From positions 1 to 25,928 of IMG/VR virus record IMGVR_UViG_3300026932_000021: DNA of 25,928 nt; one strand, written 5' to 3'. The DNA is from a virus. This document shows, piece after piece, positions 2,838-21,365 of this stretch. The notes below the pieces were generated by a model, which saw only the letters and a program-made list of their open reading frames with translations, made no database searches and was not told where the DNA came from. The position numbers and the translations under genes are program-made. The first letter of the stretch is position 1. Every line of letters starts with the position of its first letter.

Positions 2838-2877
2838 GAATCGGGGCGGATTACTCCGTTGTAACCCGCCCCGATTA
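2838..2877. repeat. Dispersed dyad, copy 1 (between capsid and decoration genes)
   Basis: The arms AATCGGGGCGGATTAC (2839-2854) and GTAACCCGCCCCGATT (2861-2876) are inverted repeats around the 6-base centre TCCGTT. There is one mismatch (GGATTAC against GTAACCC). It fills the gap between the capsid stop and the next start codon. It is one of eight full copies in the window. No T-tract follows on either strand, so it is not a standard intrinsic terminator. Confidence 0.85.
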
Positions 2878-2904
2878 TCGGTTCACGAGAAGGTCAGTTG
2901 ACCA

Positions 2905-3819
2905 TCAGAGTGCGTTGCTGGCGAAGCCTCCGCGCGGGTTGGCCCACAGGAAGACGTAGCGCTCATACGCTGCAATCTTGTAGTTGCGCGTGTCAGCGTC
3001 GTTGTCTTCCCAGATTTCCAGTGCCTCACGCTCTTGCCAGATCAGTCCGTCCTGGCAGTTCGTGGTAATGAACCACGGGCCGGTGCCGCCGAGATAGGGG
3101 TTGCTGACAATCCCACCGCGGATCATGCCGTCCACTGCCACCGGGTTGATATCGTTGTTGTTCGTGCCAACTGCCTTGTCGGTGCGCAGGATGCGCTGGG
3201 CCGTGAAGTAGTTGTTCGGATGCACGATCAGCTTGTCACCCGACAGTGGCTCGATGAAGCCGCGGTCGTCCTTGGCCTGCATCATCAGGATGAGCATGTC
3301 TTCCAAGGCAGCCTGGGACAAGGCGGCGTCCACGGACAGCTTGTTCTGCCAGGTTCCGCCGGACATGTTCGGGTGCGCGACGTTGAACAGCGACACCCCA
3401 TCACCCCCGACGTAGGAGCTGTTGAAGCCCCGCGTGAAGATGTTCGTAGCGTTGATGTTCTTCGTCTCGTTGAAACTGCGGCGCAGCTTTTCCGCACGGC
3501 CCTTGGTGAGCTTGATGTACAGGTTGTCCTTCAGCTCCTCGTGGGTCGTGATGATGCCCAGACCATACGCGGCGTTCGTGCCACGGGTCGTGAAGCCCTG
3601 CATCGTCGTATCGTACGACACCGGCTGGCCTTCCGGCTTTCGCGGTGCGATGCCCAGGCCGACAGCCTGCACATACTCTTCGTAGTTTTTCGAGCTGGAT
3701 TCCTTGCGGTACATCATCTCCCAGTAGTGGGGGGTGGATGCAGCGGCCGAATCCCACCAGCTCTTCACGCCTTCCCACAAGCCCTTGGGAAAGCTGCCAG
3801 TATTGACTACACCAGACAT
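2905..3819 (-). CDS. Major capsid protein (probable)
   Basis: This 304-residue protein contains RGFNSSY, DGVSLFNVAHPN, a segment of the form LSGDKLIVHPNNYFTAQRIL and GGIVSNPYLGG. Together these recall HK97-fold major head subunits of the Mu gpT / podoviral type (F-R-F, DG-LF--HP, L-V-P----A--IL). The length (about 34 kDa) fits. ATG at 3819 has AGGAG about 9 bases upstream. It follows the scaffold and a probable cement protein, the usual capsid order. The shell assembles around the scaffold in the cytoplasm. The assignment combines motifs and order; no alignment was made. Confidence 0.8.
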   Translation of the reverse strand: MSGVVNTGSFPKGLWEGVKSWWDSAAASTPHYWEMMYRKESSSKNYEEYVQAVGLGIAPRKPEGQPVSYDTTMQGFTTRGTNAAYGLGIITTHEELKDNLYIKLTKGRAEKLRRSFNETKNINATNIFTRGFNSSYVGGDGVSLFNVAHPNMSGGTWQNKLSVDAALSQAALEDMLILMMQAKDDRGFIEPLSGDKLIVHPNNYFTAQRILRTDKAVGTNNNDINPVAVDGMIRGGIVSNPYLGGTGPWFITTNCQDGLIWQEREALEIWEDNDADTRNYKIAAYERYVFLWANPRGGFASNAL

Positions 3820-3850
3820 GGTTCGTTCTCCTGTTTTTCAGTGTTGGTGG

Positions 3851-4456
3851 TCAGACGCCGGCAGTGTTGCCCATCAGCTCATGCTGATTGAACCGCACAA
3901 GCCAGTGAGCGTACTGTCCGAAGGTGTTGTCGTCGCGCTGCACCAGGCCCATCAACTTGAGGTTCAGGGCTTGGGTTGTAGCGACGCTGGCAGTCGTCAG
4001 CACGCTGGCCGACATTTGCTGCGGCGCCGTGGGGTTGGCCACAGTGAAGCTGGCATTTTTGTTGACCGACGTTCCCGTCAGGATCGAGAGGCCGTCGTCA
4101 ACCATCTCGAACAGCACGTTCGGGTCGTCGAGCACCAGCGCGTAGTAGGCGCGCAGTTTCGTCGCAGGGATCTGCTGCGTGGCGAGGTCCAGAGTCGGGG
4201 CCAGCAGGCTGCCAACGTAGGGAGGAGATTGCAGGAAGCCCAGGAACACGCCGCGAACGGTGTCGGTCCCTGCTGCCTTCTGAATGCCCATCACTCCGTT
4301 ACCATCCGACAGAGCCACGCTCTTGACTGCATCGCCGGGCGAGTACACGCTGCCGTCGGTGCTGGGGATGTAGTACAGGTTGGTCGCGCCGTTCCAGGCA
4401 TTTCCGTCCAAGTACCGGATGGGGACAAAGCCCCGCGGATTGTTCAGGTTGGCCAT
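3851..4456 (-). CDS. Probable capsid cement / decoration protein
   Basis: This 201-residue protein opens MANLNNPRGFVPIRYLDG, followed by NLYYIPSTDGSVYSPGDAV and VRGVFLGFLQ. It later has YYALVLDDPNVLFEM. The combination NPRGFVP, YYIPSTD, GD-V and DDP-VLFE is common in small phage head proteins placed next to the capsid gene, often annotated as coat, cement or decoration proteins. It lies 31 bases upstream of the capsid start. Which capsid role it plays (trimeric clamp or minor coat) cannot be told from sequence alone. Confidence 0.7.
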   Translation of the reverse strand: MANLNNPRGFVPIRYLDGNAWNGATNLYYIPSTDGSVYSPGDAVKSVALSDGNGVMGIQKAAGTDTVRGVFLGFLQSPPYVGSLLAPTLDLATQQIPATKLRAYYALVLDDPNVLFEMVDDGLSILTGTSVNKNASFTVANPTAPQQMSASVLTTASVATTQALNLKLMGLVQRDDNTFGQYAHWLVRFNQHELMGNTAGV

Positions 4457-4483
4457 TTGAAAAAGTCTTTCTGACGCCTAGTT

Positions 4484-5011
4484 TCAGCGTCTGCCAGTTG
4501 TCAATTTGATATCGTAGCCGGTGGGCTTGTAGCGGTTCCGGTCGGCTTCGATCTCGCCCTGCCGGATAGCCTCATCCCAATCGTCTGCCTGTGCCTGGTT
4601 TCCATCTTGGAAGTCCTGCCAGAGCTCCTCGGTGGCCTTCAACAGGTAAGCCCGGAGGGGGCTGCCATCAGCACGAGTGCCGACGTACTTGCTGAGGCGA
4701 TTGTCAAGGTCTTTGTCCACCACCAGGGCCGACTCCATCTTGACTTCCGCGGGCTGGACGAACTCGAAGCCTTCCGCCAGCAATTGCTCAATGGCTGCAT
4801 CCTCGTCGTTGCACCAGTACAGATGGTAGCCAGGAATGGAGCCGAACACGTTCAGCTTCATTTTGGGGCCACCGAGGCGGGACCGGCGCTCACGGGATGC
4901 TTGGGGGCGATCATCCTCACGGCGCACCGCTTGGGCAACACGCTCACTGTTGCGACTCGGCCCAGCTGGGAAGGAGGAGGTACGCTGGGCAGCAGAGGTT
5001 TTGGATTGCAT
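4484..5011 (-). CDS. Hypothetical protein of the head gene cluster
   Basis: This is a 175-residue protein. The first 50 residues are polar, Arg/Ser-rich and probably disordered. A folded part follows from the second methionine (MKLNVFGSIPGYHLYW), then EQLLAEGFEFVQPAEV, and it ends in a charged Asp/Glu/Arg-rich tail. Translation could also start at that internal MKLNV, but the upstream ATG at 5011 has GAAAG in the right place. Its position between scaffold and cement genes implies a head or assembly function. The family is not recognised. Confidence 0.65.
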   Translation of the reverse strand: MQSKTSAAQRTSSFPAGPSRNSERVAQAVRREDDRPQASRERRSRLGGPKMKLNVFGSIPGYHLYWCNDEDAAIEQLLAEGFEFVQPAEVKMESALVVDKDLDNRLSKYVGTRADGSPLRAYLLKATEELWQDFQDGNQAQADDWDEAIRQGEIEADRNRYKPTGYDIKLTTGRR

Positions 5012-5059
5012 CTTGGGCTTTCAGGGAAAGGGTTGGGAAGGGGGAGGGAAGGGGAAGGG

Positions 5060-5998
5060 TCAGCGCTTGGGGTTCCGAGCGAAGTAGGATTCCAGGAATT
5101 TCTCTTCCGTGGTCCAGCCTTCGCGGACGAACTGCGCGCAGAGGGCACGGTCCTCAGCCGGGAGGTCCCGAATGCTCATCTTGCCGCCAGAGGACGAAGC
5201 ACTGCTCCGATTGCTGCTGTCGACAGGACTACGGCGAGGGGTACGAGGGGTGGAGGAGGACTGCCCAAACTTCCTCGGCATTTCCTCTTCCATTCTGCGC
5301 CGAACCTCATCCAGGAACGGACGGCCAAGCTCCTGGTTGGGGTCTTTGCGCATCTCTGCAGCAATTTCCAGAGCGACTTCGCGCATGCCAGCGTTGTCCC
5401 GGAACCACTCGTTGCCCTCGTCAATCCAGCCCTGAAGGACTGGGTCCAATTGGGCCTCTTGGGTAGTGGGCTTTTGCACTGCCTCCTTCTCCCTCTGGAG
5501 ATCAGCAGCACTCTTGTCCAGCAATTCCTTCCGATCCTCCAGCTGCTCTACGAGGTCATCGTCCCCGTTGCGATCAGCTTCTCGAATCTCCCGCTTGATT
5601 TGCCTGAGGGCCGACTGCAGTTCCTTCTCCTTCTGCTCCATCGCTTCCTGGTGGAACTTCTTGAACGCTTCAGCAGTGCCCTTGAACTCCGTCAGCTGCT
5701 GCTTCAGCAGGGCATTTTCGGCCTGCAGGTTCTTGTTGAACTTTGCGCCGCGCTCGTTGAAGGTTTTTGCATCGACCCACTTGCTGGGGTCACCCTTGTA
5801 GCGGTTTTTCGGAACCCAGCCCTTTGAGGCAGCAGTCCGCTCGGCCTCTCGGCCCTCCTCTGCATCTCCGGCCTCGAAGTTGAGGTCCAGTTGAGCATCC
5901 GCCTCTTCAGTGGACAGCTCCTGAATCCGCGCATCCAGGTCATCCGCGGCTTCCTGCGGAGTTTGCTGCGTGGTTTGTTGTGTGCCTTCGACTGCCAT
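5060..5998 (-). CDS. Scaffolding protein (probable)
   Basis: This is a 312-residue, highly charged protein. An acidic N-terminus (residues 1-60) leads to KGWVPKNRYKGDP, KWVDAKTFNERG and then about 100 residues of heptad-like coiled coil (LLKQQLTEFKG to DLQREKEAVQ). A Ser-rich linker near 250-272 precedes a short basic C-terminal domain. The GWVPK--YKGDP-KWVDAK-F-ERG phrase with a long coiled coil is typical of podoviral internal scaffolds. Scaffold C-termini usually bind the coat. AAGGAA lies upstream of the ATG at 5998. It opens the capsid-assembly cassette. Confidence 0.82.
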   Translation of the reverse strand: MAVEGTQQTTQQTPQEAADDLDARIQELSTEEADAQLDLNFEAGDAEEGREAERTAASKGWVPKNRYKGDPSKWVDAKTFNERGAKFNKNLQAENALLKQQLTEFKGTAEAFKKFHQEAMEQKEKELQSALRQIKREIREADRNGDDDLVEQLEDRKELLDKSAADLQREKEAVQKPTTQEAQLDPVLQGWIDEGNEWFRDNAGMREVALEIAAEMRKDPNQELGRPFLDEVRRRMEEEMPRKFGQSSSTPRTPRRSPVDSSNRSSASSSGGKMSIRDLPAEDRALCAQFVREGWTTEEKFLESYFARNPKR

Positions 5999-6027
5999 TT
6001 TCCGTTCCTTCTTTCAGTTTCAATCGA

Positions 6028-6067
6028 TTAATCGTGTGGATTACAGCGAAGTAATCCGCCTCTATTA
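6028..6067. repeat. Dispersed dyad, copy 2 (between co-chaperonin and scaffold genes)
   Basis: Core GGATTAC (6038-6044), centre AGCGAA, then GTAATCC (6051-6057). The outer arms are degenerate (TAATCGTGTG on the left, GCCTCTATTA on the right), and the left inner spacing is one base shorter than in other copies. The centre read on the minus strand is TTCGCT. It occupies the 84-base gap between the GroES-like stop and the scaffold start. Confidence 0.8.
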
Positions 6068-6082
6068 CTCTCCGTCCCTGCT

Positions 6083-6520
6083 CTAGTCCTCGATGGTGGA
6101 AATGATATCCAGGTCCGCAACGAACCGATACTTCTTCCCGTCCTTCGGACTGACATGAAACTTTCCGGTGTACATGCCGACCAGAACTCGATCCCCGACG
6201 TCGCAGTAGTCCGCCTGCTTATCCACCCACGCATCCACGCCAATCTCCAGCACAGTGCAAATGACTGCGTTGTTTTCAGTGGCCTCGATGGTCTTCTTGG
6301 GGAGGACGATACCGCCACTGGTAACCTCCTCAACCTCTTCAGGCTTCAGCAGAACACGAAAACCAGTGGCCCGGAAGCCGCTCTGATTCTCTGCTTGCGG
6401 ACCTTTCTGAGCCCGCCAGCCAATTTGCCCCTTTTGAGGTTCCAGCGCGGAGTGCCCAAGCATGCTCTTCTGCAACACTGCTACAGCTTCTGGGCTGAGT
6501 TGCACGGGAAATCCAGTCAT
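6083..6520 (-). CDS. GroES-like co-chaperonin
   Basis: This 145-residue protein has a GroES fold from about residue 45. It shows FRVLLKPEEVEEVTSGGIVLP (the R-L-----E--T-GGI-LP signature), a loop, VICTVLEIG, then YCDVGDRVLVGMYTG with the GD-V----Y-G pattern, and a C-terminal ADLDIISTIED strand. About 45 N-terminal residues are extra compared with the usual roughly 97-residue GroES. Phage co-chaperonins such as T4 gp31 replace host GroES to fold the capsid protein inside GroEL. The gene sits just upstream of the scaffold and capsid genes, which fits. No GroEL is seen in the window. Confidence 0.85.
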   Translation of the reverse strand: MTGFPVQLSPEAVAVLQKSMLGHSALEPQKGQIGWRAQKGPQAENQSGFRATGFRVLLKPEEVEEVTSGGIVLPKKTIEATENNAVICTVLEIGVDAWVDKQADYCDVGDRVLVGMYTGKFHVSPKDGKKYRFVADLDIISTIED

Positions 6521-6524
6521 ATGT

Positions 6525-6707
6525 TCACCATCCTTCTTCCAGTAGGTCTATGATCTGCCGAAGGACCGAAAGGCCCCCCAGCGCTTTTGCGTTCATCAAC
6601 GCGGTTTGTTCGAGGCTGTCGCCCACGAACCCTTCGGCGGCCCAAGTTTCCTGGGTCTCCTTCAGGCTATTGTAGAGTTTGGCCCGCAGTTCCTGGGTCG
6701 TTGGCAT
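6525..6707 (-). CDS. Small protein overlapping the portal gene end
   Basis: A 60-residue product is predicted from ATG at 6707 (MPTTQELRAKLYNSLKETQE), which has GGTGGA about 8 bases upstream. It overlaps the last 41 bases of the portal gene and ends 4 bases before the GroES-like start. An upstream ATG at 6764 would add 19 residues and lengthen the overlap to 98 bases. The sequence is helical and charged with no membrane segment. The family is not recognised; close packing between two good genes supports it. Confidence 0.65.
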   Translation of the reverse strand: MPTTQELRAKLYNSLKETQETWAAEGFVGDSLEQTALMNAKALGGLSVLRQIIDLLEEGW

Positions 6708-8976
6708 TTGCGTCCATTCCACCCATTCTTGCCGCTGCGTTTCCGGCTTGCTTGCTTGCACCATCTGCTACTCCGTCGGCTTTCGCCCTCTGTTGAGAAT
6801 CTGCGGCCCGCTGCATCAATTCGACTGCCTTCAGCAGACCTTCTTCGTGTACCTTCGCCGCTCCAATCTGGGCATTCAGCAGGGAAATTTGCTGCTGCTT
6901 GTCCACACCATCGGCTTCCGCAAGCAGCTTGGTTGCCTCCGCTTGCAGCTTCAGGATCTTGGCCTGGCTTTCCAGCGCGGCCTGCTCCAGTTCCTTCGTT
7001 GCCAGCTGGAACTCCCGCTGAGCATCCTGTTCCTTCTGCTTCAGCTTCCCTTCCTCGATCTGAACCTTCGGATTTGGGGGAGGCTGAATTGCATTCGGTC
7101 CCTGCGGATCGGGCAGCAGCAGGTCAATGTCGGCCACGTTGTAGGATTCGAGAAATTCCCGATGCACCAAATACTTATTGTACCCAAAGTAGCTGTTCGA
7201 CGCATTCAGCACCATCGTTGCGTTCTGCTGTCGCTGGGTCTCGGAAACCATCTCCGCAGCCACTGCTGGATACACGCGGAAGCGGCCACTGTCGTAGTCC
7301 GTCGGAGCAATCATGGCCATTGTGCCCTGGGTCAGCTCCTCCCACTGCGGACTGTCCCGGAGGAAAAGTCGGTTGCAGTTGTGAACCTTCCGCAGCTCAT
7401 ACGTGAAGCTCCTGTGCATCCGAGTGAAAATCCCGCTGAAGATCTTCATCCCCTGTTCCAGCGTATTCCGGCTCGTCTCCGCGGGCGTATTCTGCCCTGG
7501 GCTAATGCCCATCATAATGTCAGTCGACCCGGCGATCTTCTCCCCGTAGCTAATGAGCAGGGAAAGGAGCTGGAAAAGTACTGTGGAGGGTTCCCGAACG
7601 GGCAGCGGGAAGATGTTCTTCCGAAGGTCATCCCCAGTCGAATCCACCGTCTTCCACTCGAAGGGGTTGAAGGTAGTCTGCCCGCCCTTGAGCTTCACCC
7701 CTCTCCCCAGAAAGCCACCCGCGGTCGTGTTCATCGTCCCGCTGTCGATCATCTGATTGAGCGTCGTGTTCACTGCCTCATTCGTCGGACCCATCAGGGC
7801 AATCAAGCCCAGGTCGTAGAAGCCGCCGTCAGGCGAGGGGATGAAGGTGTATTTTGTAAAGTAGTCTGGCGGAGTGATCCGAAGGATGCTGTTTGCAGGG
7901 TGGTTCCTCAGCTCCAGCTTTTTGTCCTCAAGCCGATTCTTTTCCGCCCGATCCTCTGCCTTTTGGATTGCTTTGTCCAGGCTTCGCACCAGTGCATCGT
8001 TCTTCCGAACAACGTCTCCTTCATCGTAGAATCGAGCCACGATTCGCAGAGTTTGTTTGGTGTCCAGCCTGACAAACACAACATACGGTTCAGCATACCC
8101 GTCCCCATCGAGGTCCAGCCACTTGTGCTGTTCCAGGATATCGAACATTTCGGTCGTTGTGTCCTGATCAGGGTGGGTGCCCGCAGCATCCTTGGCTGCT
8201 TGGGACAGTTCGTTCGACTCGGTTGCCCTGGTCGGAGGGGTGTCGTCCATCTCCAGGAACACACCTGCATTCTCCCGCTCGGCAATGTCGTTCCTGGTCC
8301 ACTCCAGCAGATGCGTTGCCCGATTGCACCTGTCCAGGTTCTTCGTATTGTAGTCCACCACAAACTTCTGTGCCGGGACGAACTCGCTGACCACAATCCC
8401 CTTCACTGAATCCCAGTAGGTCTTCTTAAAGGCGCAGCCCATCAGGCTTGCTGCAAACTTGCACTTTTCGTCATCATCGCGCCAGTTTAGATCTTCCTCA
8501 ATCAGCTGGAAGCTCATGTGCTGCCCAATGCGTTTGGCAACCTTGCTGGCCTCACCCTTCGGATCGGCACCAAACACAGTGCACTTCACCGGCGTCTTCC
8601 CCTTGGTCAGAACTGCGACCCTGCTGAGGAACTGAAGTGCGCCGACCGTCAGCAGCGGAAACTTCACATTGGAGCAGTTTTCCCAGGGAAAGCTCTTCGC
8701 CTCCACGACCTGCATGGCCAGCTTCATCCCGTCGGCATTCTTCCGCTCCCACTCCTTCCTGGTGGCCAGGTCCGAACGATAGTCCTCCACAACTGTACTG
8801 CCGATCTGATCCAGTTCTTCCCGGCTCAGCATCGTGCCGATGTTTGCTGTCGAGCTCAGCAACTCAAACTTCAATTTAAACTTTGGCTGGTTGAGCCGAC
8901 TACTCACCCCCTGGTTCGTCTGTCGGGGAATGTTATTCGTGCCGGTCTTCACGACTTTTGCCTGATGCAGTGACAT
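6667..8976 (-). CDS. Portal protein (P22-like)
   Basis: This 769-residue protein is in the size range of P22 gp1 (725 residues). The N-terminal part has REELDQIGSTVVEDYRSD and ERKNADGMKLAMQ. The middle has YTFIPSPDGGFYDLGL, NTTLNQMIDSGTMNTTAGGF and DIMMGISPGQNTPAETSRN, typical of podoviral portal crowns and stems. Residues about 630-730 form a long Gln/Glu/Ala-rich coiled coil, like the P22 portal barrel. AAGGAA is 6 bases upstream of the ATG at 8976. It forms the dodecameric DNA channel and docks terminase. It lies 24 bases after the terminase stop. Confidence 0.88.
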   Translation of the reverse strand: MSLHQAKVVKTGTNNIPRQTNQGVSSRLNQPKFKLKFELLSSTANIGTMLSREELDQIGSTVVEDYRSDLATRKEWERKNADGMKLAMQVVEAKSFPWENCSNVKFPLLTVGALQFLSRVAVLTKGKTPVKCTVFGADPKGEASKVAKRIGQHMSFQLIEEDLNWRDDDEKCKFAASLMGCAFKKTYWDSVKGIVVSEFVPAQKFVVDYNTKNLDRCNRATHLLEWTRNDIAERENAGVFLEMDDTPPTRATESNELSQAAKDAAGTHPDQDTTTEMFDILEQHKWLDLDGDGYAEPYVVFVRLDTKQTLRIVARFYDEGDVVRKNDALVRSLDKAIQKAEDRAEKNRLEDKKLELRNHPANSILRITPPDYFTKYTFIPSPDGGFYDLGLIALMGPTNEAVNTTLNQMIDSGTMNTTAGGFLGRGVKLKGGQTTFNPFEWKTVDSTGDDLRKNIFPLPVREPSTVLFQLLSLLISYGEKIAGSTDIMMGISPGQNTPAETSRNTLEQGMKIFSGIFTRMHRSFTYELRKVHNCNRLFLRDSPQWEELTQGTMAMIAPTDYDSGRFRVYPAVAAEMVSETQRQQNATMVLNASNSYFGYNKYLVHREFLESYNVADIDLLLPDPQGPNAIQPPPNPKVQIEEGKLKQKEQDAQREFQLATKELEQAALESQAKILKLQAEATKLLAEADGVDKQQQISLLNAQIGAAKVHEEGLLKAVELMQRAADSQQRAKADGVADGASKQAGNAAARMGGMDANANDPGTAGQTLQ

Positions 8977-9000
8977 TGCAATTCCTTTGGGTTGTTCAGC

Positions 9001-11633: not shown

Positions 11634-11678
11634 GATTATCCGTGCGGATTACTCCGTTGTAATCTGCCTCAATAATCC
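11634..11678. repeat. Dispersed dyad, copy 3 (divergent region)
   Basis: Core GGATTAC (11646-11652), centre TCCGTT (identical to copy 1), right arm GTAATCT (11659-11665). The outer half-sites are TTATC on the left and AATAA on the right. On the plus strand it contains TTGTAA (11657-11662), followed 18 bases later by TACAGG, a weak version of the promoter geometry seen at copies 6 and 8. It stands in the divergent region between the two arms. Confidence 0.8.
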
Positions 11679-12373
11679 TGTACAGGAAAAAATAAAAAAA
11701 TTGGAAGGGAAAAGAGCTCAGTGAGGGAAGAGGGAAAAAAATTTGAAAAACTGCGGAGGGGTGCATTAACACTTTTTTGCTGCGCCGCCGTTTTCCCCCC
11801 ACACCCCCCTGGAACCCCTCCCACCGCCTGGAGACCCCCTCCACATGTTCAGCCCCCTGGGTGGGGGTTCGCCCAGCCTACCGGGGCCAATCTCGCACCC
11901 CACTCCAGACCCTTCGCATGCCTCCCCGTGCCTACCGGCCAACCTGTCACACATCCACCACACCACCAGACGGAGGGCCAACCACATCGGAAGGCCTGGG
12001 GTATACGACCGGGCGAGGCAGGCGGGGAGGGGTGAGGCAGGGGAGGGCGGTTTGCCGCGCACGCCCGCCCCCACACCCTGCCCACACTCCTTGCATGGTC
12101 TTTCATCCTTTCAGCCCTCCTGTCCCCTTCCCTTTCGTCCTCGCGCAGCCCCGCCTACCGACTCAACCCGGCACATTGGATTAGCGAGGCTGTGCGCTCT
12201 TGGCCGGGGTTGGGGCCACCATTGCACCAGCCCCCACTCGTTCACGCCCCCTAGAGGCCATTGCGGCCCGTTTTCACCAAAATGGTGCGAGGCATAAAGG
12301 GCCGCAGGTTCATACGCAACGGGGCATATGGGAATGGGAAGGGAAAGGTGTGCGGGTTGGGCGACATTCCCCC

Positions 12374-13046: not shown

Positions 13047-13562
13047 ATGGCAACCGTTACCAACTCCACCGCCCGCGTTCCCGCGCTCTCCGCTGAGATC
13101 GACGGCACTTCCCTTATTCTCACGTTCGCCGATGCGCGGAAGCTCTCGGTGGACACCCAATCTCTCTCCGAGAGCATCATCCTTTCCGCCATCCTCCACG
13201 GCATCGAACAAAAGCTCCGTGACGCCGCTGCCATCGGCCGCGACCCCGTGACCGGGCGGAGCGCGACCCTGGAGGACAAGTACAATGCCGTTCGGGAGGT
13301 GTACGACCGGATCACGAGTGTGGATGGCACCTGGAACAAGATTCGCACCGGCGAAGGGGCCGTGCCTACCGGTGGCCTCTTGGTTCGCGCCCTCATGCAG
13401 CTGTCCGGCAAGGATCGGGATGCGATCGTTGAGCAGCTCGCGGGGCTCTCCAAAGAACAGGTGTCGGCGCTCCGCAAGAACAAGCGCGTCGCGGAAGCCA
13501 TCGCCAGCCTCCGTGAAGCCTCGGACGATTCGGACGAGCTTCTGGATGGCCTCTTGGGTTAA
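13047..13562 (+). CDS. Hypothetical protein, paralogue of the 16803 gene
   Basis: This is a 171-residue soluble protein. The ATG at 13047 follows the shared leader AGAGGCTCACATC; an in-frame upstream start would read through the promoter. Residues 20-60 contain LILTFADARKLSV and ILHGIEQKLRDAAA. Later come GGLLVRALMQLSGKD and VSALRKNKRVAEAIASL, and the end is DSDELLDGLLG. The order HG-EQKL, LVRAL---GKD, ALR-N-R---I--L and D-LL-G matches the product of 16803-17447. Function is unknown. An own promoter and a strong terminator make it a single-gene unit with the properties of an abundant early protein, by inference. Confidence 0.78.
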   Translation: MATVTNSTARVPALSAEIDGTSLILTFADARKLSVDTQSLSESIILSAILHGIEQKLRDAAAIGRDPVTGRSATLEDKYNAVREVYDRITSVDGTWNKIRTGEGAVPTGGLLVRALMQLSGKDRDAIVEQLAGLSKEQVSALRKNKRVAEAIASLREASDDSDELLDGLLG

Positions 13563-13607: not shown

Positions 13608-13630
13608 GGTGCACGGACCAGCCCCCTCGG

Positions 13631-13676
13631 GGGTTATTGGGGCGGAGTACTCCGGTGTAATCCACCCCGATAACCC
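13631..13676. repeat. Dispersed dyad, copy 4
   Basis: The left arm 13631-13650 (GGGTTATTGGGGCGGAGTAC) and right arm 13657-13676 (GTAATCCACCCCGATAACCC) are centred on TCCGGT. It is the longest copy (20-base arms) but has three mismatches, including GAGTAC in place of GATTAC. It lies just downstream of an intrinsic terminator. Confidence 0.83.
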
Positions 13677-13981: not shown

Positions 13982-14025
13982 TGGTTATTGAGGTGGATTA
14001 CTCCGGTGTAATCCGCATGGATTAT
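13982..14025. repeat. Dispersed dyad, copy 5
   Basis: Core GGATTAC (13995-14001), centre TCCGGT (same as copy 4), GTAATCC (14008-14014). The outer half-sites are TTATT on the left and GATTA on the right. It lies 163 bases upstream of the 78-residue gene and about 300 bases from copy 4, the closest full pair in the window. Confidence 0.82.
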
Positions 14026-14082
14026 GGCTACGTCACTGCCATGACTTTCCGCTACGTCCCTTCCGTGGATTCTGGCTACCTC
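14018..14082 (+). repeat. Short direct repeats around TGGCTAC
   Basis: GGATTATGGCTACGTC (from 14019) and GGATTCTGGCTACCTC (from 14067) are near-identical 16-mers. Between them lies a partial copy, CCGCTACGTC. A third TGGCTAC follows at 14197, inside the next gene after GAATTC. They could be binding sites in the leader of the 14189 block, or the result of local duplication. Confidence 0.4.
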
Positions 14083-14425: not shown

Positions 14426-14427
14426 AC

Positions 14428-14628
14428 ATGGCCACCAGACCCGTGAGCATCCGTCGATTTCCGCTACCACAGGGTACGATCCGCGTATACCCCGTGCTGG
14501 GAGCGAAGTTCACCGGCCAGTCCAAGGGCTGCCACAACACTGAAACCGGGGAATATTGGGAAGTTCTCCCTCCACTGGACCGGGATGCGATTCGATTCCA
14601 GCGAATGCTTCTCCAAAAGAGGCGCTGA
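14428..14628 (+). CDS. Hypothetical protein, 66 residues
   Basis: ATG at 14428 is two bases after the preceding stop, so translation is likely coupled. The product is basic (start MATRPVSIRRFPLPQGTIRV, end RFQRMLLQKRR) with a mid segment GCHNTETGEYWEVLP. No known motif is visible. The gene's place in a compact run with both neighbours 2 bases away is the main support. Confidence 0.65.
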   Translation: MATRPVSIRRFPLPQGTIRVYPVLGAKFTGQSKGCHNTETGEYWEVLPPLDRDAIRFQRMLLQKRR

Positions 14629-14630
14629 CC

Positions 14631-14993
14631 ATGCCCACCCCAACCCTGCAGTCCATCCGCGACCTGCTGCTGACGTCTGACAAGGCTGTCTGCCGCGCAG
14701 TTGTTGCAATCTACCGTCGACAGACCCAGGAGGAGAAGTCGATGGAAGGTACGCTGGCACGGAATGGCGTGGGCTTCAACTCTGCCGATGCCTATCCCCT
14801 CACAAGACTAGCGAAGCAGCTCCTACACTCCGGGCCGGAAGCTGTCCCTGCTTTCCAGATCCTCGGTGCGCGCGAACGCATCCTGAAGTACGCTGGACAG
14901 CTTCTGGAAATTGCCCAGGAGAGGGAAGCGGAAAAGCTCCTCAATCAACTGACCTCAACTGAAACTGAAACTCAAAAGGAAACCACTGTATGA
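14631..14993 (+). CDS. Phage protein with NGxGFNxADA motif
   Basis: This 120-residue protein starts at ATG 14631, two bases after the preceding stop; an earlier in-frame ATG would overlap that gene. It has a helical N-terminus (LQSIRDLLLTSDKAVCRAVV), then NGVGFNSADAYPLTRLAKQLL, then ARERILKYAGQLLEIA. The NG-GFN--DA motif followed by a helical segment with AR-RI-KY--QL recurs in small accessory proteins of many phages; its function is unknown to me. A related but shorter motif occurs in the product of 19671-20027. Confidence 0.72.
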   Translation: MPTPTLQSIRDLLLTSDKAVCRAVVAIYRRQTQEEKSMEGTLARNGVGFNSADAYPLTRLAKQLLHSGPEAVPAFQILGARERILKYAGQLLEIAQEREAEKLLNQLTSTETETQKETTV

Positions 14994-15322
14994 CCACACT
15001 GATCGGCTCTTTCATCTCTGCCGAATGGGGCAAGGTTCTTGTAGGCACTGACCACTACGGGGGTAAAGGTGGTCCCCTGGCTGTGCTCCTCCTCGAAAGG
15101 GAAGGACAGCACCTGGCGACCCTCTCTGTCAACATGTATCGTCCCGAATGCAGCCACGACAGTCGTGATCTACCGAAAGACTGCTTCTATGTGAAAGAAT
15201 GGGGGGAGAATGCCCAATTGGCCCAGGAAGCCTACAACAGTGGCCTGTTCCTCCTGCGCCCTGACCTTCCCAAAGCTTACAGTGGCTTTGTGAGTGCCCC
15301 GGTGTGGCAGCTGGCAGACTGA
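14990..15322 (+). CDS. DUF4313-like small protein
   Basis: ATG at 14990 overlaps the upstream stop (ATGA), with AAAGGA 8-13 bases upstream. In the 110 residues I see GGPLAVLLLEREGQHLATLS, a VNM strand, then CFYVKEWGENAQLAQEA and YNSGLF. The layout (hydrophobic strand, G-P-A-L-VNL-like strand, F-----EN--L---A---GL) resembles DUF4313, a family of unknown role in plasmids and phages. This match is from memory and moderate. It ends the four-gene block, and dyad copy 6 begins 2 bases after its stop. Confidence 0.6.
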   Translation: MTTLIGSFISAEWGKVLVGTDHYGGKGGPLAVLLLEREGQHLATLSVNMYRPECSHDSRDLPKDCFYVKEWGENAQLAQEAYNSGLFLLRPDLPKAYSGFVSAPVWQLAD

Positions 15323-15324
15323 CT

Positions 15325-15368
15325 TTGTAATCAAGGCGGATTACTCCATTGTAATCCGCGCCAATAAC
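15325..15368. repeat. Dispersed dyad, copy 6
   Basis: Left half-site TAATC, then GGATTAC (15338-15344), centre TCCATT, GTAATCC (15351-15357) and outer AATAA. It lies between two gene blocks. The right core arm doubles as the -35 of a promoter. The bases AGACTGACTT just before it are also found before half copy 8. Confidence 0.85.
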
Positions 15369-15378
15369 CCCCTATACT
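15349..15378 (+). promoter_or_regulatory. Promoter with -35 inside dyad copy 6
   Basis: TTGTAA (15349-15354) is formed by the end of the dyad centre and the start of its right arm. An 18-base spacer leads to TATACT (15373-15378). The GHKL ATPase gene starts 48 bases downstream. Any protein bound to the dyad would cover the -35 box. Confidence 0.62.
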
Positions 15379-15426
15379 GACCTTCCCCTAACCCTTGGGC
15401 ACCCCGTGCCCTTTCCTGAGGCTCAT

Positions 15427-16629: not shown

Positions 16630-16662
16630 GCCGAGGCCAACTGTCAACCCCTCACAGAACAA

Positions 16663-16696
16663 GGGTATTCCCTCGAAAAACACTTGGGAATTTCCC
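16663..16696. promoter_or_regulatory. Pair of short dyads upstream of the 16803 promoter
   Basis: GGGTATTCCC (16663-16672) and GGGAATTTCCC (16686-16696) are two similar near-palindromes about 23 bases apart, centre to centre. The second abuts the -35 box at 16697. The spacing is about two helical turns, so two dimers could bind on one face of the DNA. They differ from the main dyad family. Confidence 0.45.
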
Positions 16697-16725
16697 TTGC
16701 CCATCTGCCGCCCATGTGCCATACT
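16697..16725 (+). promoter_or_regulatory. Promoter for the 214-residue gene
   Basis: TTGCCC (16697-16702), a 17-base spacer and CATACT (16720-16725). The start codon at 16803 is 77 bases downstream with AAGGAA before it. An intrinsic terminator follows the gene, so this looks like a single-gene unit. Confidence 0.55.
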
Positions 16726-16802
16726 TCGCTTTCCGGCATCGCAGTTCGCAATGTCGCCAACCCAGGGGGCACACTTTCCCCCGCCACACTGAAGGAAATA
16801 TA

Positions 16803-17447
16803 ATGTCCCATACCGAAGCTGCCAAGGAAGTCGAACAGGCCGAAGCCCCCAAGGGCAAAAAGGCTGTCGTGATCCAGACCGTCACGATGGATGACGGCCG
16901 CGTGGTTGAGTTCGCTGGCAAGAAGCGGATGAAGAAGGAGACCACGATCAGCGCCACCGGCGAGATCCACACCCGCCTGGACTTCGTGAACGGCGAAGTT
17001 CGCAGCTACAAGGTCACCCCCGAAATGCTTCCCCGCTTCGCTGCTCACGGCGTGGAACAGAAGCTCGGGGATGAGATCGCTGGTGTCGACGACATTGCAG
17101 ACGCAGTCGAGGCGATCGACGAGCTGCTCATCCGCCTGGAAAAGGGCGAGTGGACCGCCGAACGCGCTGCCGGCACCGGTGGCCAAGGCAAGGGCAACAG
17201 CCTGTCGGGTGCTTCCATTCTGGTGCGGGCACTGGTGGAAATGACCGGCAAGGACGTTCGCAGCATCCGCGAAGCCCTGATGGACAAGACGCCAGCGGAA
17301 AAGGCTGCGCTCCGCCGCAATCCGCGCCTGCGTCCGATCATCGAGCGCCTGGAGTCGGAGAAGGCTGCCAAGAAGGAGGAGAAGTCGGGCATCAACAGCG
17401 ACGACCTCCTCGAAGGCATCGTGTCCAGCGAAGCCGAAACGGTTTGA
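16803..17447 (+). CDS. Hypothetical protein, paralogue of the 13047 gene
   Basis: This 214-residue, charged, soluble protein has ATG at 16803, 6 bases after AAGGAAA. Segments in order: VIQTVTMDDGRVVEFAGKKR, HTRLDFVNGEVRSYKV, HGVEQKLGDE, a helical DAVEAIDELLIRLEKGEW, then ILVRALVEMTGKDVRSI, AALRRNPRLRPIIERL and INSDDLLEGI near the end. HG-EQKL, LVRAL---GKD, ALR-N-R---I--L and D-LL-G occur in the same order in the 171-residue product. It has an extra 50-residue N-terminus. Its own promoter and terminator suggest strong independent expression. Role unknown; I could not place it in a named family. Confidence 0.8.
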   Translation: MSHTEAAKEVEQAEAPKGKKAVVIQTVTMDDGRVVEFAGKKRMKKETTISATGEIHTRLDFVNGEVRSYKVTPEMLPRFAAHGVEQKLGDEIAGVDDIADAVEAIDELLIRLEKGEWTAERAAGTGGQGKGNSLSGASILVRALVEMTGKDVRSIREALMDKTPAEKAALRRNPRLRPIIERLESEKAAKKEEKSGINSDDLLEGIVSSEAETV

Positions 17448-17520
17448 GGACGTAGGCCAAAGCTGCCACCTTTTGCGTAATTGAGCCTCCGCAGGCGGCA
17501 GCCGGAGCTGAACCTCACAG

Positions 17521-17554
17521 AAGGGGCCAGGGTTGGAAAATCCTGGCCCCTTTT
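17521..17554 (+). terminator. Intrinsic terminator
   Basis: AAGGGGCCAGG (17521-17531) pairs perfectly with CCTGGCCCCTT (17542-17552) around a 10-base loop, and the right arm runs into TTTT. It lies 73 bases after the 214-residue gene. Confidence 0.85.
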
Positions 17555-17616
17555 GCACACTTGCGGAGCATAATCTGCTTCGCTCCCCCTTCCCTCCCAT
17601 CCGAAAGGAACCTTGA

Positions 17617-18072
17617 ATGTCTGACGAAACGACCGCGGTGCCTCCAGCACCTGCAACCGAACCCGCCGCAGCACCCGTGGCAGCTCCCGCACCCGTGGAA
17701 GCACCGGCTGTTGCTCCCGCACCTGTTGCTCCGCCTCCGCCTGATGCTCCACCCACTCTCGACCCCGCCGCAGCCGCCCTTGACCCCGCCGCAGCTGCAA
17801 CCGCCGATGGCGCTGTCGAGACAACCAACGACCTGACTCCTGCCGCTCCTCCCGCGGTCCCTCAGCCCACGGAAGCCCAAATCCAAGAGCAGGATCTGGC
17901 CCGCTTTTTCGACATGACCAACGTGTACTGGGCGCAGTCCGACGTCGATCCAGTCCGCGGTGTGCCTTCCGACATTCCTGAAGGCTACGCGAAGTGCTCC
18001 GATGGCGGCTGGCGCAAACCTCTGTACGCCGGCGGCACTGTCGAACCTCCAATGGGGGGAACTGCAGCATGA
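17617..18072 (+). CDS. Pro/Ala-rich protein with short C-terminal domain
   Basis: This is a 151-residue protein whose first 100 residues are low-complexity Pro/Ala (APAPVEAPAVAPAPVAPPPP). They include a perfect tandem LDPAAAA repeat at about 48-61. A conserved-looking C-terminal part follows from about 90: LARFFDMTNVYW, GVPSDIPEGYAKCSDGGW. The ATG at 17617 has AAAGGAA about 7 bases upstream. The Pro/Ala stretch is probably an extended linker or tether. Function unknown. The stop overlaps the next start (ATGA). Confidence 0.7.
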   Translation: MSDETTAVPPAPATEPAAAPVAAPAPVEAPAVAPAPVAPPPPDAPPTLDPAAAALDPAAAATADGAVETTNDLTPAAPPAVPQPTEAQIQEQDLARFFDMTNVYWAQSDVDPVRGVPSDIPEGYAKCSDGGWRKPLYAGGTVEPPMGGTAA

Positions 18073-18365
18073 CCATGCCTACCGTTGGTCGCAGGGTCTG
18101 GCTCATCATCCGTGACGGCTGCCCTGCACCCTTCGCCCGCCACGGCGACCAGCCACACGACGCAGGAATCGCCTTTGTCTGGCACGAACACCTGGTGAAC
18201 ATCAGTGTGTCCGACCACAATGGCTATCCCCAAAGTCTGACCAGTGTGCACTTCCGCCAGCCAGGGGAAGATGAACCTGTGGCCCCCTACTGGTGCGAAT
18301 GGATGCCCTATCAAATCGGGCAGGCCAAAAAGGATGAGGCCGAGGCGAAGCGAAAGCAGAGCTAG
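18069..18365 (+). CDS. Small conserved-type phage protein (PTVGR start)
   Basis: This 98-residue protein starts with ATG at 18069, overlapping the preceding stop. It begins MTMPTVGRRVWLIIRDGC and then has AGIAFVWHEHLVNISVSDHNG. The PTVGR-VH----G---A-IV--V--D--VNL-V-D--G layout is common in small phage proteins placed next to replication genes; their role is not known to me. The C-terminus is Lys/Glu-rich. It ends a block, and dyad copy 7 begins 18 bases later. Confidence 0.68.
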   Translation: MTMPTVGRRVWLIIRDGCPAPFARHGDQPHDAGIAFVWHEHLVNISVSDHNGYPQSLTSVHFRQPGEDEPVAPYWCEWMPYQIGQAKKDEAEAKRKQS

Positions 18366-18382
18366 CGCCCTCCCCTTCCGGG

Positions 18383-18426
18383 GATTATCGGGGCGGATTA
18401 CAGTAGTGTAATCCGCCCCGATTATT
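18383..18426. repeat. Dispersed dyad, copy 7
   Basis: ATCGGGGCGGATTAC (18387-18401) pairs perfectly over 15 bp with GTAATCCGCCCCGAT (18408-18422). The centre is AGTAGT. The right side ends ATTATTTT, so on the plus strand it could also act as a terminator. Half copy 8 follows within 20 bases. Confidence 0.87.
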
Positions 18427-18439
18427 TTGTAAGACTGAC

Positions 18440-18468
18440 TTGTAATCCGCCCCGATTACGGTTACACT
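18440..18468 (+). promoter_or_regulatory. Promoter built on dyad half copy 8
   Basis: TTGTAA (18440-18445), a 17-base spacer and TACACT (18463-18468). The -35 and spacer are the right half of the dyad family (GTAATC-CGCCCC-GATTAC, itself a 6-bp inverted repeat). The left half is nearly lost. The 242-residue gene starts 49 bases after the -10. Confidence 0.65.
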
Positions 18469-18517
18469 TTGTATTGGACACACCCGCTCCAACCCCAACC
18501 CTGAGAGGCTCAAAAAC

Positions 18518-19246
18518 ATGCTGGTTCCCTCCGACGCCACCCTCCCTGCTACATTCCCCTCGGCAGGTCTCCTGCTCCCCTCCCTCCCAGACCTTCCGGT
18601 CGAACCCTCCACCCCCTCTGACCCCTTGCTCTCCAACTTCATTGGAGACTTGCTGGCGGAAGTCCCCCCGAAGGAAAAGCGGCCTGCTGCCCCGCGCCCC
18701 AAGCGTGAACCAGTTGCTGACCTTTCCTCCTTCATGGGCGAACTCCTCTCCGAATCCGCTGAAGAAAAAGCGCAAAAGGAGAAGCTGAAGGAACTCCGCA
18801 AGCAAGCGAAAAACACTGCCCTTCCGGGTTCCACCGTGAAGCGGCTGAAGGAAGAGGTCTACAGCCTTGACGTGGCCCAAAATTGGGTCGAAAAGGCTGA
18901 CACGATCTGGATTCACAACTGCACCTGCTTGAATTGTGGCCGGTCCACCCCCACATTCCAGGGCTATTTCCGCCGAATGTATAACAGACACTCCCACGTC
19001 GATCGGTGGGTTGCGCTGGACCCGGAAACCGTGAGCACTCTCCCCAGGGAAATGAAAGTCGAAGAGCGCGAAGTGTCCCTCTGCCCCGAATGCCTTCCCC
19101 AGGTCCTGATGGAAGACGGCTGGCTTACGGCCGAAGCCCCTGAAGGCACCGATTCCGACATTCTCCAGGAGGAACTGGATGAAGAAGTGACGGACAATGT
19201 GGCAGGGAGCATCGACAATGAAGATAATTTGGAGGAGCTGCTCTAA
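18518..19246 (+). CDS. Probable zinc-binding protein with repeated LL peptide
   Basis: This 242-residue protein opens the block, with the leader CCTGAGAGGCTCAAAAAC just before the ATG. The N-terminal 60 residues are Pro/Leu-rich. Two similar peptides, LSNFIGDLLAEV and LSSFMGELLSES, occur at about 39-50 and 69-80. A basic helix follows (EKLKELRKQAKN). Cysteines C135, C137, C140 and later C189 and C192 (CTCLNCG and LCPEC) could hold one zinc. The C-terminus is strongly acidic and ends DNEDNLEELL. No family is recognised. A regulatory or adaptor role is possible. Confidence 0.72.
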   Translation: MLVPSDATLPATFPSAGLLLPSLPDLPVEPSTPSDPLLSNFIGDLLAEVPPKEKRPAAPRPKREPVADLSSFMGELLSESAEEKAQKEKLKELRKQAKNTALPGSTVKRLKEEVYSLDVAQNWVEKADTIWIHNCTCLNCGRSTPTFQGYFRRMYNRHSHVDRWVALDPETVSTLPREMKVEEREVSLCPECLPQVLMEDGWLTAEAPEGTDSDILQEELDEEVTDNVAGSIDNEDNLEELL

Positions 19247-19311
19247 TCAGGGGCATACTCCTCCCTTTCCCTCTTCCCATTTCCATCCCTGCAACTGAAA
19301 GGAGGACTAAA

Positions 19312-19521
19312 ATGTCCCGACCTGCCCGTGTCGTTCGCACGATCAGCAAAAACATCGCCTTGCCTGAAGACCTCGTCGCCAGGCTAGAACTCGAACTCTA
19401 TTCGGACCTGGAAGGGAAAATCCCCTTCGGTGCCCAGGCGAAATTCTTCGAGGATCTGCTCCGGCGGCACTTTACGGAGCAGGATGCCCGCATGCACAAA
19501 CGCGCTCCCCATCACAGCTAA
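19312..19521 (+). CDS. Ribbon-helix-helix-like small protein
   Basis: This 69-residue protein has an excellent ribosome site (AAAGGAGG, 6 bases before ATG 19312). A short basic N-terminus is followed by ISKNIALPEDLVARLELELY, then KIPFGAQAKFFEDLLRRHF. A predicted strand, then helix (PEDLVARLELEL), turn and a second helix (AKFFEDLLRRHF) fit a ribbon-helix-helix fold or the similar P-GA-S-F phage protein group. Such proteins often bind DNA dyads as dimers, so it is a candidate regulator of the dispersed dyads. That link is speculation. Confidence 0.65.
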   Translation: MSRPARVVRTISKNIALPEDLVARLELELYSDLEGKIPFGAQAKFFEDLLRRHFTEQDARMHKRAPHHS

Positions 19522-19537
19522 ACTGAAAGGAAATACA

Positions 19538-19702
19538 GTGGAAATCCCCCCGCATGCACAGCTCTCCAACCCTCGCCGCAATGAGCAGCGCAAGTTGCTG
19601 AAAGCCCTTGGAGGCCGGCGTCAGTACCGTAAAGCCCAACGCCAGTGGCGAGAAGAACAGCGAGCCCAGCATGGCAACCAAGGCCCTCATCCAGCCCAGT
19701 AG
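19538..19702 (+). CDS. Small basic protein, GTG start
   Basis: GTG at 19538 has GAAAGGAAA 7 bases upstream and lies 16 bases after the preceding stop. The 54-residue product is very rich in Arg and Gln (RRNEQRKLLKALGGRRQYRK, then QRQWREEQRAQ), so it may bind nucleic acid. The same frame is open to 19430, but that part overlaps the previous gene. It overlaps the next start by 32 bases. Unrecognised. Confidence 0.5.
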   Translation: MEIPPHAQLSNPRRNEQRKLLKALGGRRQYRKAQRQWREEQRAQHGNQGPHPAQ

Positions 19703-20027
19703 TCACCGCTCCCCTCGCCCTCGAATCTGGAAAGACCGGATTTCGAGGATTTACCACTGCGCCGTCATCATAGCAAGTCGGCGCAAGGTGCTGCAACCCG
19801 TAGGTCTCGGCTTCAACGCAGCCGAAGCCTACAATGATTGGTGGGACCTAGTGCAGCCTTCCAACCTCCCAAGAGCACTCATCCCCAACCGGGCCACTGG
19901 CCTGACAGAAAGTAACTCCAATGTCCGACAATCAGCCGAACCTCGCTACTCCAGTCACCGAGCAGCCTTCAACTCTGGCATCGCCCCCGACGGAAACTGG
20001 CCAAGCAGCCACAAGCGAGAGCCCTAA
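19671..20027 (+). CDS. Short relative of the NGxGFN protein, overlapping the helicase start
   Basis: ATG at 19671 is followed by a 118-codon frame. Residues 20-70 contain RISRIYHCAVIIASRRKVLQ and VGLGFNAAEAYNDWWDLV, which resembles NGVGFNSADAYPLTRLAKQL of the 14631 product. The last 35 codons overlap the helicase gene by 107 bases and look like out-of-frame reading (Ser/Arg/Pro-rich). There is no strong ribosome site. The protein may really be shorter and hit by a frameshift, or the helicase may start later. Function unknown. Confidence 0.5.
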   Translation: MATKALIQPSSHRSPRPRIWKDRISRIYHCAVIIASRRKVLQPVGLGFNAAEAYNDWWDLVQPSNLPRALIPNRATGLTESNSNVRQSAEPRYSSHRAAFNSGIAPDGNWPSSHKREP

Positions 20028-21309
20028 GGTTGCTGCCACTCCGCGGCCCAAAGTTCCCAACCCGGAGCAGCAAGCGGCCATCGACCAAATTTTGCAGTTC
20101 ATTGCCGACCCCGATCCAGGGCACAACTTCTTCATCCTCAGTGGAGGTGCTGGCACCGGCAAGACCTTTTGCATGAGCAGCGTCCAATCCGCCCTTCGTG
20201 GGAGCCGGACGAACCTGGCCTTCACCGCGCCCACCAACAAGGCTGCCAAAGTCCTCAAAGGTGTGGTCGGGTATGCAAAAACCATCTACTCCCTGCTGGG
20301 ACTGCGCATCGACACCAGCGGCGAACTCAAGCAGATCGTGGCTGGAGAGTACACTGACCTCTCCGACGTCGATGTGATCGTGCTGGATGAGGCCTCGATG
20401 GTCAACAAGCACCTGATCCGCGAGCTGAAAGAGCACGTGAACGATGGTCGCCTGAAGATCATCTTCATGGGGGACAATGCGCAGCTCCCCCCGGTCGGTG
20501 AAGTTTCCAGTCCCATCTGGACCGAAAAGAACGTCCCGCTCGCCCAGCTCCTGAAGGTCGAACGGCACGACAACCAGATCCTGAAGCTCGTCACCCACAT
20601 CCGCGAACAGGTTTTCCTCCCCCAGACTGACCTGAAGCTCCAGGCGGACAACGATGGTCAGGAAGGTGTGTGGAAGATCAATAAGCAGGCGTTCAAGATG
20701 AAAATCTACGATGACGCTGTGGACGGAGCCTTCAGCGACACCAACGGGACCAAGGTTATCAGCTGGCGCAACATCAAGGTCGCGGAATACAATGATCTGA
20801 TCCGCTTGGGTATCTTTGGCGAGGCTGCCATTCCCGGCTACTACCTCCCAGGGGACCGGGTTATTGCTACCGCACCCTGCAAGCGGGGCGAAGAACTCAT
20901 CCTGGCCACGGACGAAGAGGCTGTGGTGGAGAGTGTTCGGGACAGTCAGCATCCGGTGGAGCCGAAGTATAAGATTTCGGAGCTGAAGTGCACCACGGAG
21001 GATGGCCGAACCATTCGACTTTGCACCCTGCATCCCCACTCCGCAGAGCTTTTCAACAAGGACTGCGAGGAGCTGGCCCATGCTGCCCGCAAGGATGGTC
21101 GCCTGTGGCGCAAGTTTTGGCTTCTGAAGGAGCTGTTCCACGAAGTGAAGTACGGCTACGCGATCACTGCCCACCGTGCCCAGGGGAGCACCTACGGGAC
21201 AGTGTACGTCGACACCGGAGATATTCTGCTGAACCGAAGCCGGCGAGAAGCTCTACAGTGCCTCTACGTTGCGACCAGCCGCCCCACGACGCGCCTCATT
21301 CTCACGTAA
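19921..21309 (+). CDS. SF1 DNA helicase, Dda/RecD-like
   Basis: The 462-residue size is near T4 Dda (439). A Ser/Pro/Thr-rich lead of about 45 residues precedes PEQQAAIDQIL (Q-motif-like). Walker A is GGAGTGKT (75-82); motif Ia is FTAPTNKAAK. The DEAS box of motif II has D156-E157; motif III is GDNAQLPPV from 184. Near the C-terminus YAITAHRAQGSTYGTVYVD (motif V) and LYVATSRPTTRL (motif VI) complete the SF1B set. It probably unwinds DNA 5' to 3' at phage forks or in recombination. There is no clear ribosome site at 19921, so the exact start is uncertain. Confidence 0.9.
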   Translation: MSDNQPNLATPVTEQPSTLASPPTETGQAATSESPKVAATPRPKVPNPEQQAAIDQILQFIADPDPGHNFFILSGGAGTGKTFCMSSVQSALRGSRTNLAFTAPTNKAAKVLKGVVGYAKTIYSLLGLRIDTSGELKQIVAGEYTDLSDVDVIVLDEASMVNKHLIRELKEHVNDGRLKIIFMGDNAQLPPVGEVSSPIWTEKNVPLAQLLKVERHDNQILKLVTHIREQVFLPQTDLKLQADNDGQEGVWKINKQAFKMKIYDDAVDGAFSDTNGTKVISWRNIKVAEYNDLIRLGIFGEAAIPGYYLPGDRVIATAPCKRGEELILATDEEAVVESVRDSQHPVEPKYKISELKCTTEDGRTIRLCTLHPHSAELFNKDCEELAHAARKDGRLWRKFWLLKELFHEVKYGYAITAHRAQGSTYGTVYVDTGDILLNRSRREALQCLYVATSRPTTRLILT

Positions 21310-21323
21310 GACTGTCACCTAGA

Positions 21324-21365
21324 GTTATCGGGGTGGATTACAATGGAGTAATCCACCCCGATAAC
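21324..21365. repeat. Dispersed dyad, copy 9
   Basis: GTTATCGGGGTGGATTAC (21324-21341) and GTAATCCACCCCGATAAC (21348-21365) are a perfect 18-bp inverted repeat around AATGGA. This is the best copy. Relative to copy 7 both arms change C:G to T:A together, so the pairing is kept. The centre is the reverse complement of TCCATT in copy 6, so the element is inverted. It lies 14 bases after the helicase stop. Confidence 0.92.

Follow-up and report, generated by a model that had tools for sequence, protein, structure and literature searches.

Dispersed pairs of 19-bp half-sites between the genes of an uncultured soil phage and its relatives as candidate operators of phage-encoded proteins

The window analyzed here is the whole of the virus record IMGVR_UViG_3300026932_000021, a stretch of 25,928 bp from an uncultured soil phage, and between its genes lie eight copies of a 44-bp inverted element, referred to below as dyads, together with one isolated half-site. 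The left arm, on the minus strand, harbors a podovirus-like head module made up of terminase, portal, GroES-like, scaffold-like and major capsid genes, the scaffold-like gene being presumed as such from its position, and the right arm, on the plus strand, carries replication and recombination genes, among them those of a Dda-like helicase, an exonuclease and Sak4. No tRNA genes were found in the window. The phage is incomplete in this record and extends past the right end of the window into the contigs L126, L095 and L153, with an overlap identity of 99.9–100%. This extension adds six dyads, giving at least 14 for the window phage, and it encodes a fusion of ParB_N, helix-turn-helix (HTH) and methyltransferase domains, the ParB fusion, as well as a UDG-DNA polymerase gene with an in-frame dyad. 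Megablast of the window against cultured phages gave no match, and a TerL scan of GTDB genomes returned only three contigs of metagenome-assembled genomes, so that the phage cannot be assigned to a host or a prophage.

The eight dyads with a GGATTAC-N6-GTAATCC core and the half copy, noticed in a first-pass annotation of the sequence, are confirmed. Scanning of the window for the core gave 10 matches with at most three mismatches, against 0.42 expected, and eight of them have at most one mismatch; a repeat finder returned one family of eight copies of 49 nt; and a position-weight matrix (PWM) scan placed the 44-bp frames and the isolated half-site, GTAATCCGCCCCGATTACG (Table 1).

Table 1. Coordinates of the dyads, the isolated half-site and neighboring features of the window, and of a second noncoding element in the window and in relatives (RHH, ribbon-helix-helix)
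Feature	Position	Strand	Remarks
Dyad 1	2836..2879		between the major capsid gene (2905-3819, minus strand) and the next late gene
Dyad 2	6026..6069		between the GroES-like and scaffold-like genes
Dyad 3	11634..11677		divergent region upstream of the small-terminase-like genes
Dyad 4	13632..13675		follows the paralogue gene 13047-13562 and a stem plus T run resembling a terminator
Dyad 5	13983..14026		same gap as dyad 4
Dyad 6	15326..15369		3 nt past the stop codon of 14990-15322
Dyad 7	18383..18426		upstream of the WIN_23, RHH and helicase genes
Dyad 8	21323..21366		near-perfect palindrome separating 21393-21608 from the Dda-like helicase gene
Isolated half-site	18442..18460	+	top-scoring isolated half-site in the PWM scan of the window (27.4; rank 1 of 51,820)
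Sigma-70-like promoter	18440..18468	+	TTGTAA-N17-TACACT, with the half-site as its spacer; sole TTGTAA-N17-TANNNT match in the window, 0.00 expected
WIN_23	18518..19246	+	CxxC zinc-like motifs; first gene past the promoter
WIN_24	19312..19521	+	RHH-like DNA-binding protein, 69 aa, after WIN_23; candidate dyad binder
Second element, window	11733-11785		
Second element, G003	22396		
Second element, G009	42803		
Second element, G010	34723		
Second element, G011	45319	-	
Second element, G012	5552	-	
Second element, G013	6719	-	
Second element, G015	365		
Second element, G018	7165		

Each 44-bp element consists of two 19-bp half-sites, inverted around a 6-bp center, and each half-site is composed of an outer GTTAT-like arm, a spacer and an inner ATTAC. 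The centers, which had been described as belonging to a few types, are less uniform than that, as TCCRNT covers neither AGCGAA (copy at 6026) nor AGTAGT (copy at 18383). Full complementarity of the outer arms is the exception. The double change from C:G to T:A between the copies at 18383 and 21323 is real, and near-perfect palindromes such as the latter are elements in which both halves happen to carry the same spacer. That no copy lies inside a gene holds for all the called genes of the window, but in the extension one dyad lies within the UDG-DNA polymerase gene, and the statement is therefore true of the window only.

Relatives were collected through TerL from IMG/VR, 29 records being taken whole, one of them of just 24 kb, and the Manatee Spring phage MW202489 was added; the resulting 31 genomes (30 relatives and the window phage) were each scanned with genome-specific profiles. 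A recognizable dyad family is present in 26 of them (25 relatives and the window phage), with 5 to 16 copies each and 8–16 in most. There are 173 dyads in 14 genomes and further ones in six others, and the family was found in six of the 11 genomes added later; the sets of G016, G020, G022, G023, G025 and G031 are small and include doubtful members. No dyads were found in phage M6 or in two cultured structural relatives, MW202796 and QDWS535. Core and outer arms are common to groups of genomes, the inner core being TTAC in most of them and TTAA, TTAT or TATC-like elsewhere, and the outer arm GTTAT-like in most, while the 5–7 bp spacer differs by genome (GGGGC in the window phage, GGCCA in G013, ACCGG in G014, GCCTG in G012).

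The first-pass annotation had named absence from the gaps of close relatives, or random presence within genes, as signs against a functional element; dyads are present in the close relatives and are strongly intergenic, with 207 of the 226 copies in the 19 genomes counted lying between genes (13.5% expected), an outcome that speaks for a function. The same gaps are occupied across relatives although the core shifts from TTAC to TTAA or TTAT. A dyad is found in the gap downstream of the WIN_14/20 paralogue family in 19/19 genomes, in the post-capsid gap in 16/17, in the gap before the scaffold-like gene and in the region before the small terminase in 16/19 each, and in the gap upstream of WIN_23 in 9/16. 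By gap type, the 173 dyads comprise 134 in codirectional, 16 in divergent and nine in convergent gaps, nine within genes and five at contig edges. There is also a recurrent intragenic site, ~500–590 nt into the UDG-PolA gene, in nine of 18 genomes, the window phage and MW202489. In the window phage this dyad reads DYSFVIRPDY, with a Val codon, GTA, that accounts for 4% of the Val codons in the window; the rare codon is supporting evidence only, because the polymerase protein may itself favor this sequence.

These positions bear on the proposal, raised at the outset, that the dyads are mobile or selfish REP-like palindromes that have spread through the phage genomes. Such elements would be alike within a genome, intergenic and able to invert their centers, as the dyads are, but the copies keep to the same gaps while their sequence changes from genome to genome: genomes whose TerL is only 50–60% identical to that of the window have the same gaps filled, orthologous gaps are shared by as many as 19 of 19 genomes, and the in-frame polymerase copy uses a rare codon. 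A mobile palindrome was discarded on the orthologous positions, and is highly improbable.

Whether the element acts as DNA or as RNA can be judged from the pairing of its halves. Pairing between the two halves of an element, over all positions, is 0.691, compared to 0.717 for halves re-paired at random within the same genome (z -4.1), and the spacers also pair less than after random re-pairing (z -3.0). Mismatches on the transcribed strand include 197 G-T and 224 A-C. A selected RNA stem would give the opposite on both counts. Moreover, among near-identical orthologous post-capsid dyads (L014, L016, L023, L041, L167, L174) the center is found in either orientation, such as TCCATT in L014 and AACGGA in L023; this inversion looks as if it came from hairpin-mediated flipping. 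As the halves vary independently, G-T and A-C mismatches are about equally frequent and the center is inverted between orthologous copies, the best reading of these sequence comparisons is a site that works as DNA, is neutral to orientation and consists of two 19-bp half-sites independent of each other.

The same data, together with the occurrence of dyads in gaps of all orientations, argue against RNA stems, terminators and simple promoters. RNA hairpins between genes, serving in processing, termination or mRNA stability, had been one of the options of the first-pass annotation, and some near-perfect palindromes, such as that at 21323, and the location of copies between stop and start codons are what they would predict. 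However, the halves pair no more than at random and lack a G-U bias, the dyad flanks contain no T tract or other strongly conserved motif, Rfam gave no match, and an intrinsic terminator lies within 120 nt of 18/198 dyads vs 10/232 control gaps. Hairpin, rho-independent terminator and processing site were discarded on these grounds, and an RNA element is very improbable. Promoters of late or middle genes, assisted by a phage activator that binds the dyad, are also improbable, if a little less so. Start codons follow many copies at a distance of ~20–50 nt, and a promoter is overlapped by one half-site, but the flanks are not conserved and contain no -10 at a constant spacing, which led to the rejection of a promoter of fixed -10; besides, copies are also located in convergent gaps, which have no need of a promoter, and the orientation of the center varies at the same place.

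The promoter overlap concerns the isolated half-site, which forms the spacer of a sigma-70-like promoter upstream of WIN_23. The best isolated half-site upstream of this gene has a genome-wide rank of 1, 1, 3, 3 and 5 in the window, G012, G013, G014 and G005, respectively. The following gene encodes the small protein WIN_24, which may share an operon with WIN_23. No Pfam family matches WIN_24 directly, and its AlphaFold model has two helices (pLDDT 84). It has a homologue in the Microcystis phage Mel-JY34 (profile domain E-value 5e-4), which in turn matches NikR (E 0.0025) and, weakly and below the curated cut-off, Pfam RHH_3 (E 0.007). Because of these matches of the homologue, WIN_24 is probably a ribbon-helix-helix protein.

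The second candidate for binding to the dyads is the ParB fusion, composed of ParB_N (PF02195), an HTH and N6_N4_Mtase, the copy of the window phage being located at 6040-7467 of L153. Its AlphaFold model is poor (pLDDT 47). Co-variation between sites and proteins was explored by comparing site-profile distances to protein distances, with partial Mantel tests on 25 genomes controlled for core proteins, in an exploratory design of 15 matrices by four site parts and a permutation floor of 0.003. The three best raw correlations, in the first 19 genomes, were those of the ParB HTH region (0.62), portal (0.60) and the RHH protein (0.59). In the partial tests the spacer co-varies best with the N-terminal RHH strand (0.39, p 0.003), the best non-RHH family reaching 0.10, and the same trend is seen on 19 genomes; for the inner core the best match is the ParB HTH (0.38, p 0.007), and for the outer arm it is the ParB protein (0.32). 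The paralogues WIN_14 and WIN_20 (window 13047-13562 and 16803-17447) occur in all 19 genomes. They were also considered as binders, as one or both are followed by a dyad in every case, and were rejected because their sequences show little or no co-variation with the sites (0.27 and -0.02). A DSDxLLxxL-like motif at the C-terminus is common to WIN_14, WIN_20 and WIN_26 and may serve all three for docking.

The ParB fusion also underlies the most serious alternative, itself unlikely, in which the dyads are partition, loading or marking sites, comparable to ParB-parS, Noc sites or guided methylation: the fusion would load at the dyads and then slide along, compact, segregate or methylate the DNA, regulation being secondary. 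Known ParB-family sites are single palindromes of ~13–16 bp and not 44-bp pairs, and the spacer tracks the RHH protein, not ParB. On the other hand, the ParB fusion is found in 18 of the 19 genomes of the first set, the extension of the window phage and MW202489, and it is similar to Spo0J and Noc, among its PDB relatives, within residues 7–201; the intragenic dyad and the copies in convergent gaps require no promoter logic. Intergenic repeated motifs are present, too, where no RHH protein was found by profile. G024 (L266–L268) has the head module in common with the others, gave no hit for the RHH protein and encodes a divergent ParB fusion; the same search gave no dyad there, and its 11 GTCCCAA sites, nine of them as GTCCCAA-N-TTGGGAC and 10 of 11 outside genes, look like a different dispersed site system. 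As a natural contrast, G024 also counts in favor of the operator model given below. The Vibrio phage VS-ABTNL-3 (L265), in which the profile did not find the RHH protein, and the Microcystis phage Mel-JY34 (L264), both with a ParB-methyltransferase fusion, have AATTACA-type repeats (7/12 and 6/6 intergenic, respectively), including one that follows a capsid gene and a pair located in a convergent gap. In a 2025 survey, such fusions in phages are listed as a class enriched in phages and with no known role (PMC12704722).

The model proposed here is that the dyads are probably dispersed paired operators of one or more phage-encoded proteins, acting as repressor or roadblock sites. The first-pass annotation had favored an operator or punctuation system; the independence of the halves at the DNA level, the orthologous gaps and the half-site on the sigma-70-like promoter fit this, and protein binding and an effect on transcription are what the model adds to them. 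Each 44-bp paired operator would be bound by the DNA-binding protein or proteins of the phage itself, the lead candidates, alone or paired, being WIN_24, which would read mainly the spacer, and the ParB fusion, which would read the core. Copies in the gaps of both arms would then repress or block transcription at the boundaries of transcription units, and WIN_23 and WIN_24, as early genes, would be autorepressed through the single half-site on the promoter that precedes them. If the dyads are operators, the binder may be the RHH protein alone or, just as possibly, the RHH protein and the ParB fusion together, both being tentative assignments; the ParB fusion alone and some other protein are each rather doubtful ones. 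In a more elaborate and fairly speculative form of the model, the sites would be composite, with the RHH protein on the spacer and the HTH of the ParB-NTPase/methyltransferase on the core, jointly exerting KorAB-like long-range silencing and marking across the phage family. This family appears to be virulent, because neither an integrase nor a classical repressor turned up when 83 proteins from the relatives G001 and G003 were matched to Pfam, many of these proteins matching nothing.

Several observations weigh against paired operators. A dyad within a coding gene is unusual for an operator, and many codirectional copies, such as those at the scaffold and post-capsid gaps, have no visible promoter nearby, so that their effect must be on elongation or something else. 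In 11 of 16 genomes, the isolated half-site that precedes WIN_23 does not rank near the top, the copies of G016 and G031 are few and poor, and G026–G029 encode both candidate proteins and yielded no dyad with the seeds used. The assignment of WIN_24 to the RHH fold is indirect, its Pfam and PDB matches being weak or obtained through a distant homologue, and Foldseek gave no match to its model. Finally, the co-variation is modest, was picked after looking at the data, and has shared phylogeny only partly removed.

Among known systems, stoperators appear to be the closest in logic and KorB-OB with KorA the closest in the possible proteins. The operators OR and OL of lambda are adjacent sites of ~17–19 bp, ~6 bp apart, clustered at two promoters; the half-sites of a dyad have a similar size and spacing, but the dyads are dispersed and no CI-like protein was identified here. 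RHH repressors such as Arc, CopG and NikR bind inverted repeated subsites, usually in one or few operators, with a site at the promoter that precedes the repressor gene. The phage encodes a small, probably RHH-like protein, its dyads consist of inverted subsites, and a half-site lies on the promoter ahead of WIN_23 and the gene of this protein; here, however, 8–16 sites are dispersed through a genome. KorA is not an RHH protein. The likeness to KorB and Noc sites lies in a phage-encoded ParB-family HTH protein and in palindromic sites near and away from promoters, and the likeness to KorB–KorA in a second small DNA-binding protein as partner, proposed here to be the RHH protein; the differences are the 19-bp half-sites paired in 44 bp, short palindromes being found in G024 only, and the fusion of the phage ParB protein to a DNA methyltransferase. 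In plasmid RK2, the 16-bp palindromic OB sites are located near and away from promoters, and KorB acts with KorA, which binds OA (PMC11790492). The stoperators of cluster A mycobacteriophages (L5, the TipsytheTRex repressor) number more than 20 dispersed repressor sites in short intergenic spaces and promoters; each is an asymmetric 13-mer that runs in line with transcription and is the target of the monomeric immunity repressor of temperate phages (PMC9283540). Dyads resemble them in being present in many copies dispersed in short intergenic gaps, but they are symmetric 44-bp pairs, orientation-neutral and located in codirectional, divergent and convergent gaps. The Pfam matches of the two relatives hold no integrase or classical repressor, and the window phage is incomplete. 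Because asymmetry, on one side, and the single short palindrome, on the other, fail to apply, the dyads are filed under neither stoperators nor ParB-family sites.

In the open-access literature on dispersed palindromic phage operators and targets of ParB-methyltransferases, no description of this system was found, and the dyads point to an undescribed genome-wide control system in the whole phage family. Genome-wide dispersed phage operators are best known from temperate actinophages; here they would be present in an uncultured family with no visible lysogeny genes. The dyads also offer a concrete DNA target for two orphan proteins, the small RHH-like protein and the ParB-methyltransferase fusion. 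If the sites were composite, changes in the spacer would give each phage its own specificity, and phage ParB-methyltransferase fusions would gain a target and a role.

Other noncoding sequences accompany these genomes. G026–G029 (L269–L280) each contain one or few intergenic palindromes of other sequence, for instance CGTGTTCACACTATG in G027. A second conserved noncoding element, approximately AATTTTGAAAAA-CTG-GG-GGTGCATTA-CACTTTTTT, is found in nine genomes in a long noncoding region near the small terminase side (Table 1), and it is possibly an origin or a packaging site.

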